From Lactobacillus sp. MRS-253-APC-2B (lineage in GTDB: Bacteria > Bacillota > Bacilli > Lactobacillales > Lactobacillaceae): a DNA stretch of 64,000 nucleotides. The DNA is taken from the NCBI RefSeq assembly GCF_012843675.1, contig NZ_JABAFO010000005.1:62001-126000 (forward strand), read 5' to 3'. Below, piece by piece: positions 27,003 through 30,595 of the stretch; position 1 is the first letter of the stretch, and every line of letters begins with the position of its first letter. The translations under genes were made by a program, and so were the position numbers. The notes below the pieces were generated by a model. That model was not told the origin of the DNA and searched no databases. It was given only the letters and a program-made list of their open reading frames with translations.

Positions 27003-27242
27003 ATGCAAGAACAAATTCAACAACTTTTAGCCGAAGCTACCGGACGTGACGCCAGCGATTTTGCCGACACTACTGAAGATTTGTTTGCCGACGGTCTGCT
27101 GGACTCCATGGCAACCGTTCAGCTGCTTTTGGCTCTGCAGGATGAATTCGACATTCAGGTTCCCGTTTCCGAATTTGACCGCAGCGAATGGAGCACGATC
27201 GATAAAATCGTTGATCGGGTAAAGGAACTGGAAAATGAATAA
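27003..27242 (+). CDS. dltC: D-alanyl carrier protein DltC
   Basis: 79 aa acyl-carrier-like protein. The phosphopantetheine Ser is in the GLLDSMATVQLL motif (about residue 37). It is acidic and lacks a membrane segment, as expected. TGGAGG lies upstream. It overlaps dltD by eight bases. Confidence 0.95.
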   Translation: MQEQIQQLLAEATGRDASDFADTTEDLFADGLLDSMATVQLLLALQDEFDIQVPVSEFDRSEWSTIDKIVDRVKELENE

Positions 27243-28531
27243 CCGTCGCAAACTGTGGTCGATCTTTGGCCCAGTGATCGTGGCCTGCCTACTGGCGCTG
27301 GGCTTTTTTGCCTTACCATGGAGCAGCTCGCATTCCCAGGCAACCCTGCAGAAAGCTGCCGACTCGCTTAGCCCCCGTGTTTTTAAAAACAGCTCGATCA
27401 AAGTGGAGGCCATGCAGGATAAAAAGAAAAACTACATTCCCTTCTTTGGCTCCAGCGAGTTGAATCGAATGGATCGCTATCATCCCGCAGTCATGGCGGC
27501 CCGCTACCATAACTACACGCCGTTTTTGTTCGGATCGCGTGGTACACAGTCGCTGCCACAGCTGTTCAATATGACCATGATGGCACCCGAGATGAAAAAC
27601 GGTAAAGCCGTCTATATCATCTCGCCGCAATGGTTCGTTAAAGAAGGCGTAATGCCAGCGGCTTTTAAGTACTACAATGGTTACATATGCCAATCTAGTC
27701 TGGCTCAAGCAGGCCAATCCCAACTCACCATATGACCGTTATACTGCTAAACGCTTGGTAAAACTGCTGGGTTCAGAAGGGTCTGTGGCCAACTATGCCA
27801 AAAAGATCGCAGATGGCAAGTCACTCAGCTCCTGGGATAGAACTCATATCGACGTGGAGTCAACTCTACTCAAGCATGAAGATGACCTGTTTTCGGGATG
27901 GTTCTTAAAGGACAACTATGCCAAGCGCATTCAACCGCGCATTAAAAAACTGCCTAAGCACTATGACTATCAGGCACTGACCAAGGAAGCCATCAGTGAT
28001 GCCAAACATTCCAGCAATAACAATCAATTTGGCATCTTAAACCAGTTTTATAACAAGCGCGTCAAAGGACACCTCAAAGGACTACCAGGCAGTCAAAAGC
28101 ACTATAACTATCTTAAGTCGCCTGAATATGCCGACCTAGAAGTGGTGCTGGACCAGTTTAAAAAGACCAACACCAACGTTGTCTTTATGATTACACCGGT
28201 TAATGTCAAGTGGGAAAAGATGACTGGGCTGCCAATGTCGATGTACTATCAGACAGCTGACAAGATCAAGTACCAGCTGCGCTCGCAAGGTTTCAACAAT
28301 ATCGTTGACTACTCACACGATGGCGGCAAGCCAGGCTTTATGGAAGATACTATTCATATTGGCTGGGCTGGCTGGGTCAACTTTGATCACCGTATTGCGC
28401 CATTTTTGGAGCAAAAGCAGCCACAGCCGCACTATCACATGAATAAGGCCTTTTTATCAAAACAATGGCAAAATCTTGATCCAACAACAACCAATTTGAA
28501 TCAGTTCACCAAGAAACATCTTGATAAATAG
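27235..28531 (+). pseudogene. dltD: dltD interrupted by a single-base frameshift
   Basis: DltD is the membrane-anchored extracytoplasmic SGNH-like protein that completes D-Ala transfer to lipoteichoic acid. The first frame (27235-27735) encodes the N-terminal membrane helix and the catalytic Ser in FFGSSELNR, then runs into a foreign tail YICQSSLAQ. The second frame (open 27677-28531) carries the rest, including the Asp/His motif in EDTIHIGWAGW. Dropping one T at 27681-27682 (GGTTACA to GGTACA) joins the frames into about 431 aa, the normal length. Neither half contains the full active site. I see no slippery heptamer. It may be a true mutation or a sequencing error. Confidence 0.88.
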
Positions 28532-28592: not shown

Positions 28593-29849
28593 TTAGTTTT
28601 CGGAAGCACCCGTCATCGCATCAGCATCCGTTTCTTCCGGATCATCAGCAGCTTCAGAAGCACCCGTGTTGGCATCGGATTCAGCCTGTTCAGCACGTTC
28701 TGTGGCAGCTGACATGACAGGAGCAGCTGGTTCGCTTGGCGTACTTGGTTCATCGTTGGAGTCTTCTGAGGCACCCGTCGTTGCATCCATGGCTGGAGCT
28801 GGTTCTGCAGCCGGTGCCGGTGCAGCATGGCCATGAGAGGCACTGGACGTTGCATCAGCGCTCCAGGCACCATTTTCAGCCAGGTTCAGGATATCATCAA
28901 CTGAACCCGTAAATTCAATCGTACCCAGGTAGTGGCCGTCAACATCGCGCAAAGCGTAGTAGCGGATCAAAACCCGGTGGCCATTCATCGTCAATGGACG
29001 CGCAACTACGTCTTTGGTGCCGTTCTTAAAGCTGTCGATGATCGCCTTAACAGCAGGAACAGCCTTTGGTGGATGACATTCACTGTAGGTTTCGCCAAGC
29101 TGGTTGACGTTACGGATGTGTTCACGGTTTGGCTTGTCTGAGTAGTAGGCAAAGCGATCCGTAGCATCGATCAGGTCAATCTCAAATGGAATCGTGTTGA
29201 AGATGGCTTGAATCTCACGCAGCGACAGACGGCCGGTTGGGAAGTTGACATAAGCATCTTCAATCATTGGACGTTTAGCAGACATCAGTTGTTCACCTCG
29301 AGAAGCATTCTTGAAAAGTTCGGCATATTCAACAAAATTAGTAAAGCATTTTTCCAGATTATCAACGCAGGCCTGGTCGATCAAACGGCCATCCTTGCTA
29401 AAGACCTTGGCAGCATTGCCGATCAAGACTTCGTTACCAGAAAGCAGGTTGGCATTGCAGTCTGGGCTCAAAAGCATTTTGCGCATTTGTTGCTGAGCAC
29501 GTGCTGAAGCCTGCCGACCATAAGAAACCCCTACGATCATAGCTGGCTTGCCATGCAGCACGGCTGACTTGTATGACAGCCATTCCATTGCACTCTTTAA
29601 GGCTGCAGGTACGGCATGGTCATATTCAGGCGTAGCAAAGATAACCCCATCGGCAGCATTGATTTGTTGTTTAAGCTTCCAGACCGGCGTGGTTTGATCA
29701 AAAGGCACATCCTTGCTGAAGGCCGGCAGATCCTTAATTTCAGCAATTTCAATATCAGCCATGCGCCAGAAGTGCTTCTTCATGAAATGCAGCAGAATCC
29801 GGTTGTAGGAAAAATCGGCGTTCGTACCGACGATTGCAACAAACTTCAT
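28593..29849 (-). CDS. NAD(P)H-dependent FMN reductase fused to a PAS-like domain and a DxxTGAS-repeat tail
   Basis: 418 aa, three parts. (1) A flavodoxin-like NADPH-FMN reductase domain (about 1-185) with the FMN-phosphate loop near the N-terminus (VGTNADFSYNR) and TPEYDHAVPAALKSAMEW. (2) A PAS domain of the type linked to DUF438 (about 205-325; FNTIPFEIDLIDATDRFAYY, ECHPPKAVPAVKAII). (3) An acidic, Ala/Pro-rich tail with DATTGASE (355), DANTGASE (392) and DAMTGASE (410), plus a degenerate DATSSAS (332). Dxx[ST]GA[ST] is the motif to which ApbE attaches FMN through the last Ser/Thr. No signal peptide is visible, so it is probably cytoplasmic. The start overlaps the stop of the upstream paralogue by one base. 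Confidence 0.82.
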   Translation of the reverse strand: MKFVAIVGTNADFSYNRILLHFMKKHFWRMADIEIAEIKDLPAFSKDVPFDQTTPVWKLKQQINAADGVIFATPEYDHAVPAALKSAMEWLSYKSAVLHGKPAMIVGVSYGRQASARAQQQMRKMLLSPDCNANLLSGNEVLIGNAAKVFSKDGRLIDQACVDNLEKCFTNFVEYAELFKNASRGEQLMSAKRPMIEDAYVNFPTGRLSLREIQAIFNTIPFEIDLIDATDRFAYYSDKPNREHIRNVNQLGETYSECHPPKAVPAVKAIIDSFKNGTKDVVARPLTMNGHRVLIRYYALRDVDGHYLGTIEFTGSVDDILNLAENGAWSADATSSASHGHAAPAPAAEPAPAMDATTGASEDSNDEPSTPSEPAAPVMSAATERAEQAESDANTGASEAADDPEETDADAMTGASEN

Positions 29850-30439
29850 TATTTAGCAGCCTCCTTTTCCGCTTTGGCCAAGGCTTCTTCTTCCATTTTA
29901 ACTTCTTCATCATTGGCAATGGCAAAGCATTCAAAGTCACGCAGACACTTGTCCAAGAACTTGATCGTGCTGGGATCGGTAATGTCGCCATTTTCGTCAA
30001 ACAGATTCTGGGCAAAACTCATAAAGAAGTCTTCTTTTTGGAACACCCGCGCGTTGACCCCTGGTGAGATCATGACGTCACGCAGGTCGACTTGAGCCCG
30101 CGAAGAACCTTGCGCATCAGTTGAAGCCCCCACCAAAAGCACCGGCTTGTTGGTAAATGGATGCAGCTGGTAAGACAGCCACTCGATGATGCTCTTTAAA
30201 GAAGATGGGACTGAGTGGTCCGTTTCAGGGCACGCAATCACTACGGCATCGGCGGCTTCGATTGCATCAGACATTTCCTTGATGGCAGCTGGCGTTTCCT
30301 TGGCACTTTCATTGAACAGTGGAATATTGCGAACGTCAACGACCGTCATGTCATGCTCATAGGCCTTGCTCATGTATTCGAGCAGCATTCGGTTGTACGA
30401 ATGGTTGGCATTGGAGCCGGGAATTCCAACAATCTTCAA
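29849..30439 (-). CDS. NADPH-dependent FMN reductase-family protein
   Basis: 196 aa from a TTG at 30439, nine bases from AAGGAG. The ATG two codons earlier (30445) is only three bases from that site, and starting at TTG aligns MKIVGIPGSNAN with MKFVAIVGTNAD of the neighbour. Flavodoxin-like fold with CPETDHSVPSSLKSIIEWLSY, the same FMN-binding segment as the downstream paralogue. The C-terminus is a charged Glu/Lys/Ala helix. Its stop overlaps the start of the fused reductase (TAATG), so translation is likely coupled and the two may form one flavin-reducing system. Substrate unknown. Confidence 0.8.
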   Translation of the reverse strand: MKIVGIPGSNANHSYNRMLLEYMSKAYEHDMTVVDVRNIPLFNESAKETPAAIKEMSDAIEAADAVVIACPETDHSVPSSLKSIIEWLSYQLHPFTNKPVLLVGASTDAQGSSRAQVDLRDVMISPGVNARVFQKEDFFMSFAQNLFDENGDITDPSTIKFLDKCLRDFECFAIANDEEVKMEEEALAKAEKEAAK

Positions 30440-30595
30440 ATTCATTCACTCCTTATTAATGATGATACTCTCCATACTTGGCATTATTGCACTAGCCTAT
30501 TTTAATATAAATTTTGGGGAAATTGTATAGATCCGCACAAATTTTGTGAAACTAATTTCAAAATGTGAAATTAATAAATTTATCAGCGATAAAAA

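Follow-up and report, generated by a model that had tools for sequence, protein, structure and literature searches.

Two reductase genes and a motif-bearing tail

The window, that is the whole stretch of 64,000 nucleotides that was analysed, contains two adjacent reductase genes on the reverse strand (Table 1). The 198 aa ORF is joined to the downstream 418 aa ORF by a one-base overlap (TAATG), in agreement with the first-pass annotation of this sequence, which had described a second, translationally coupled reductase upstream. It had also described an NADPH-FMN reductase followed by a PAS domain, and these correspond to the Pfam FMN_red and PAS_10 matches. In profile searches, the best solved chains for the FMN_red domain were 1rtt and 3svl (YieF), and 2qkp and 3cax were the solved relatives of the PAS_10 domain. 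A structure model of the 418 aa protein, for which 20 aligned sequences were the input, has both domains folded, and from approximately residue 330 the block-mean pLDDT falls to 31-39. FMN_bind was not detected in this protein by Pfam, and FMN_red starts at residue 1, which leaves no space for a signal peptide. The extracytosolic location of multi-flavinylated FMN_bind proteins is consequently not predicted for it. The nearest named match was L. mucosae DSM 13345 (93 %).

Table 1. Features of the reductase locus (window coordinates)
Feature	Position	Strand	Basis
FMN_red protein, FRedA-like partner, 198 aa, no tail motif	29849..30445	-	PF03358, E=7.1e-32
FMN_red-PAS-tail protein, FRedB-PAS fusion, 418 aa	28593..29849	-	ORF, Pfam and structure model
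Overlap of the stop and start codons (TAATG) of the two reductase genes, preceded by GGAGG	29847..29851	-	Sequence
FMN_red domain, aa 1-147	29409..29849	-	Pfam, 1.9e-32; block-mean pLDDT 66-95
PAS_10 domain, aa 214-313	28911..29210	-	PF13596, E=5.7e-16; block-mean pLDDT 58-92
Disordered acidic/Ala/Ser/Pro tail, aa 326-418	28596..28874	-	pLDDT <50, residues 330-418
Slot 1, variant DATSSAS	28836..28856	-	Sequence
Slot 2, ApbE motif DATTGAS	28767..28787	-	Sequence
Slot 3, ApbE motif DANTGAS	28656..28676	-	Sequence
Slot 4, ApbE motif DAMTGAS	28602..28622	-	Sequence

The gene that follows dltABC (window 27235-28531, + strand), probably dltD from its position, is divided between ORFs 27235-27735 and 27677-28531, which are in different frames. 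In L. mucosae (L133) and the close relatives L003 and L004, the gene at this position is a single 435-residue frame. The split is either a real lesion or a sequencing error.

Conservation of the motifs

The three strict Dxx[ST]GA[ST] motifs and the DATSSAS variant reported in the tail by the first-pass annotation were recovered in the ORF and withstood comparison with shuffled sequences and with orthologs. When the 93-residue tail was shuffled 20,000 times, strict motifs arose at a mean of 0.0068 and there were never three. The codons used differ among the three strict copies, and TRF detected no tandem repeat in the DNA of the tail region. These observations rule out both low-complexity chance and DNA repeat expansion, and relatives in the genus and among named loci rule out the window reductase being an isolated oddity.

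Fifty genomes of the genus were searched, with matches in 45 and approximately 35 full-length rows, of which the best-scoring 30, hence those near the query, were analysed. Among these best 30 of approximately 35 orthologs, 20 carry four strict motifs and 10 carry three, a total of 110. This is 3.67 motifs per tail, where shuffling predicts 0.0103. Position 4 is T and position 7 is S in every one of the 110, synonymous codons are mixed inside the motifs, and Ser is encoded by TCN only. The majority-residue fraction, computed with one ortholog as reference, was 0.96 for the motif columns and 0.54 for the linkers, compared with 0.89 for FMN_red and 0.92 for PAS. The linkers between motif-like heptapeptides range from 10 to 41 residues (median 15). 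As the motif columns are conserved while the synonymous codons vary, selection acts on the peptide. All 30 loci have an FMN_red gene immediately before the tailed gene, in the same orientation. The final Ser runs against the known preference of ApbE for Thr at the last motif position, where Ser is less favoured.

Slot 1 holds a strict motif in 26 of the 30 orthologs and a variant in four. DATSSAS is common to L002-L004, which are the window genome and its two nearest relatives, and changes of the motif G to S or A recur in relatives. This sequence had been called decayed. It is indeed a variant here, but because another ApbE substrate kept approximately 50 % flavinylation after a G-to-A change, the slot may, by analogy, be weak rather than dead.

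Presence and position of ApbE

The first-pass annotation had staked its reading on an ApbE being encoded in the genome. One was found (E=6.3e-68), on a different contig from the reductase pair, and its 349-residue frame has no signal peptide. A hydrophobic N-terminus is absent from 68 of the 69 ApbE ORFs examined, which fits the cytosolic location originally proposed.

ApbE directly follows the tailed gene, on the same strand, at 27 of the 30 genus loci. The three exceptions are the window genome and its two nearest relatives; in G000 and G027, ApbE is on another contig. Gene order was also examined at 80 named loci. As one of the two peptide patterns used to find these was the motif itself, motif prevalence is biased in this set and it was used for gene order only. 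Among ORFs with at least two motifs and enough flanking sequence, ApbE was the next gene for 34 of 54 FMN_red-PAS ORFs (not for the other 20) and for 10 of 19 PAS-only ORFs. The order FMN_red, FMN_red-PAS-tail, ApbE was seen in Limosilactobacillus, Lacticaseibacillus, Liquorilactobacillus and Companilactobacillus. In Lacticaseibacillus and Lapidilactobacillus, a PAS-tail gene and then ApbE lie downstream of pyruvate oxidase.

Among 251 Lactobacillaceae genomes, 152 contain ApbE and 119 contain FMN_bind. Using pattern matches on one strand as a proxy for a tail (in G281 the matches lie on three contigs), ApbE was present in all 33 genomes with at least three matches and in 119 of the 218 others (Fisher 2.6e-8, phylogeny ignored). 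With at least two matches, it was present in approximately 56 of 61, the genomes lacking it being G137, G162, G164, G229 and G273. In G137, G162 and G229, the listed motif matches are separated by approximately 18 kb or belong to different contigs. ApbE has other substrates too, because it is present in the 119 genomes without three one-strand matches; G017, which belongs to the same genus, has ApbE and no motif match. Seven of the 33 genomes have no FMN_bind match, namely G001, G014, G029, G032, G048 and G061, where the tails were inspected, and G274, assessed by pattern matches alone. In these seven, the tails are the only visible ApbE substrates, FMN_bind being the sole other family searched.

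The window tail thus carries the D-x-x-[ST]-G-A-[ST] motif of an ApbE substrate, and the genome encodes an ApbE whose frame has no hydrophobic N-terminus. Judged by sequence, it is very likely that ApbE modifies this tail.

The motif on other proteins

The tag had been considered as a property of one protein, and this proved too narrow. One tagged protein of the same genome is a pyruvate oxidase (TIGR02720; score 851.7 bits against a cut-off of 637.85) that ends with DAFSGAS, DTTTGAS and DATSGAS, located past the end of the alignment to the solved enzyme. A 119-residue, putatively HesB-like protein that has no Pfam or NCBIfam match ends in DATTGASQHV. G003 and G027, the two nearest relatives, have both tags as well, and further pyruvate oxidases with the motif are found in genera g24 and g37. 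The distribution is patchy, with the motif in seven of 30 pyruvate oxidase loci and in four of 30 HesB-like loci, all from one genus. In an unrooted pyruvate oxidase tree (19 of the 30 rows), the tail label requires three changes, at least two of them forced, and 27 of 500 shuffles gave a value as low.

Within the family, stand-alone PAS proteins carry up to six strict motifs, and some of the tagged ones adjoin lactate-oxidase-like genes. Stand-alone PAS frames of 246-266 residues in genus g37 have two or three strict motifs at eight of nine loci, and the PAS frame of L246 has none. The FMN_red-PAS protein of Lactiplantibacillus plantarum (L185) has four strict motifs. In fumarate-reductase-like proteins, two motifs lie in the linker before FMN_bind, and a frame of approximately 1,020 residues in Secundilactobacillus combines FMN_red, PAS and a fumarate-reductase-like part.

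Several single loci differ from these arrangements. In a metagenome bin labelled Bifidobacteriaceae, the single chain encoded at L180:5688-7412 has seven strict motifs in addition to what look by eye like two PAS_10 stretches, and ApbE comes after it; the sequence may be that of a lactobacillus placed in the wrong bin. In Scardovia wiggsiae (L207), ApbE, FMN_red and FMN_red-PAS genes lie together and the tail contains only DAASSAS-like variants, with no strict motif, so that its ApbE may differ in specificity. In G281, a 160-residue frame (L267:3007-3486) with a hydrophobic N-terminus (by eye) contains DSTTSAS, DTETGAS and DAATGAS, two of them strict, and is possibly a membrane-bound tagged protein. 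A 280-residue frame in G235 (L044:390-1229) has seven strict motifs with a repeated YSSDLD spacer; to the eye, it opens with a sequence like the C-terminal part of an FMN_red domain, and it has no Pfam match. Outside the family, in G330 (L272), a 640-residue frame, presumably an NADH dehydrogenase from its appearance, has one DAATGAS approximately 160 residues from its end; an ApbE gene and an ORF resembling a lipoprotein, which contains DVVTGAT, are close by.

A lax form of the pattern gave 19 matches in the window genome compared with 13 for a reversed control, indicating that most lax matches are background. Eleven were outside the window and the pyruvate oxidase, HesB-like and FMN_bind genes. 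Ten of these regions were inspected and two matches were in frame, one in C5 (77 aa frame) and one at C1:292032, in a 488-residue frame that we take to be a cysteinyl-tRNA synthetase. Neither is tail-like and both were set aside. In a scan of 295 genomes of the order, approximately 48 of them inside the family, none of the 247 outside it had two or more matches to the strict DA-x-TGAS DNA pattern, though this pattern misses laxer tails and is blank in the tailed g37 genomes G085, G117, G214 and G234. The tag does not appear to be universal; its patchy spread on pyruvate oxidases and HesB-like proteins, together with the lack of strict motifs in G017, L246 and Scardovia wiggsiae, weighs against universality.

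Relationship to known systems

The window pair has the same components as FRedA/FRedB and LjPAS of L. johnsonii, namely two adjacent FMN_red genes and a PAS_10 domain, here fused. In the available sections of PMC4500961, FRedA/FRedB is an NADH oxidase that uses free FMN (Km 20 µM) and makes H2O2. It has a KD for FMN of 1.96 µM, purifies with 0.58 FMN per dimer and is active in vitro without a tail. According to the same sections, preincubation of LjPAS with FRedB lowered the initial rate from 6.8 to 2.6 (given as 50 %), the LjPAS transcript changes with aeration, and other lactobacilli, including L. plantarum, have LjPAS as a fusion with FMN reductases. LjPAS is a 28-kDa protein, and the proteins studied were made in E. 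coli BL21, so a tail on LjPAS, if it has one, was probably without flavins. The word covalent is absent from the main text, and flavinylation is not mentioned in these sections. Identity between the window FMN_red domain and the best match in each of ten g37 genomes is 47-55 %, and the stand-alone PAS frames of g37 resemble LjPAS in size. On sequence grounds, the window pair is of the FRedA/FRedB-LjPAS type, and NADH oxidase activity yielding H2O2 is predicted.

FMN_red proteins of Lactococcus also have an unstructured C-terminal extension with motif-like sequences, near apbE. As described in the parts of PMC11334425 covered, these proteins have one or two C-terminal motifs and are flavinylated by the cognate ApbE, as shown after co-expression in E. 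coli, with the Ser/Thr required. The PAS fusion, the three or four sites and the other tagged enzymes are on the lactobacillus side. Several FMNs on one chain have been proposed as an electron path in multi-flavinylated proteins, which in the sections seen of PMC8238504, PMC11334425 and PMC12052999 have folded FMN_bind domains and are generally predicted to be extracytosolic. In contrast, the lactobacillus tail consists of bare heptapeptides in a disordered region of a protein without a signal peptide. A signal-less ApbE that flavinylates a soluble cytosolic fumarate reductase is described for Klebsiella pneumoniae, in a passage of PMC12052999 that mentions no repeated tail. The same source, in part, describes the Flavin-tag method, in which an ApbE heptapeptide at a protein terminus suffices; this is an engineered tag, and the lactobacillus tails look like a natural, repeated version of it.

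The system had been thought little described. This does not hold for the reductase pair and PAS protein, which are the known L. johnsonii enzyme, or for flavinylated FMN_red proteins with one or two motifs, established in Lactococcus. It holds for the longer tail, which was not found in print, nor were the tag on PAS-only, SpxB-type pyruvate oxidase and HesB-like proteins and in fumarate-reductase-like linkers, or the cytosolic tethered-flavin reading set out below. Among the open-licence papers listed in literature searches, judged by titles and the starts of abstracts, none joins flavinylation with lactobacillus pyruvate oxidase or PAS protein.

Possible roles of the tail

We propose that the product of the locus is a heterodimeric NAD(P)H:flavin oxidoreductase of the FRedA/FRedB type that resides in the cytosol and whose B subunit has the regulatory PAS protein fused to it. 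A signal-less ApbE would modify the disordered tail in the cytosol, attaching FMN to the Ser that closes each Dxx[ST]GAS, at three intact sites here and at four in 20 of the 30 congeners. Of this proposal, flavinylation of the tail is the part in which we have high confidence. NAD(P)H would then reduce the FMN in the pocket and electrons would pass to the tail FMNs, acting as tethered electron acceptors. A Gaussian-chain estimate gives effective concentrations of 5-23 mM for tethers of 30-85 residues, to be compared with the L. johnsonii Km of 20 µM for free FMN, and we lean, if only slightly, towards such transfer to a tethered substrate. From the tail, electrons might go to O2, forming H2O2, or might reach further enzymes that carry the flavin tag, for example pyruvate oxidase and the fumarate-reductase-like proteins; exchange between tagged enzymes is a tentative suggestion and somewhat doubtful. 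Taken as a whole, the tethered-flavin explanation seems to us reasonably probable.

The tail might instead fix the cofactor, with one tail FMN filling the reductase pocket so that it is not lost, and the extra motifs serving as spares for occupancy. This was proposed from models for the Lactococcus FMN_red proteins (PMC11334425, in part), and the KD and incomplete FMN content of L. johnsonii FRedA/B (PMC4500961, in part) would suit it. However, there are three or four motifs per chain and one predicted pocket per subunit, and PAS-only, pyruvate oxidase and HesB-like proteins carry the tag and have no FMN_red domain. Because the sites outnumber the pockets and the tag extends to such proteins, we favour a tethered substrate and regard cofactor fixing as unlikely. 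That the tail follows the PAS domain in all the FMN_red-PAS and PAS-only proteins inspected is compatible with redox sensing, where the PAS domain would receive information on oxygen or on flavin redox state from the tail FMNs and control reductase assembly and thus H2O2 output. The effects of LjPAS on the FRedB rate and of aeration on its transcript (PMC4500961, in part) are also in keeping with this. Sensing would leave unexplained why pyruvate oxidase and HesB-like proteins have tails, and at the low tail pLDDT the model shows no contact between PAS and tail; we consider it improbable. An acidic solubility or bristle tail, its motif kept for a role other than flavin binding such as phosphorylation or proteolysis, would account for the acidic, disordered composition rich in Ser, Ala and Pro. 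It is very hard to reconcile with the exact match to the ApbE heptapeptide, with ApbE as the next gene at most genus loci, or with the invariable presence of ApbE in genomes with at least three one-strand matches.

The tethered-flavin explanation can be extended to a shared pool of tethered FMN. The portable, repeated ApbE tag would then let NADH-, pyruvate-, lactate- and fumarate-type enzymes of Lactobacillaceae exchange electrons in the cytosol when their tails touch, a route that would replace free flavin, flavodoxin or ferredoxin. The donors considered were NADH via FMN_red-PAS, pyruvate via the SpxB-type oxidase, and lactate via the lactate-oxidase-like genes beside a tagged PAS protein. 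We offer this extension as speculative, and less likely than the tethering itself.

Implications for lactobacilli

Most descriptions of covalent flavinylation in the literature covered place it outside the cytosol, and its presumed function there is to prevent the loss of flavin. Repeated cytosolic tags need another reason. If LjPAS is tailed, the tag would bear on H2O2 production by lactobacilli and on electron disposal by pyruvate oxidase. The sites on the tail, together with similar sites on pyruvate oxidase and other proteins, suggest a little-explored route of electron movement inside lactic acid bacteria.
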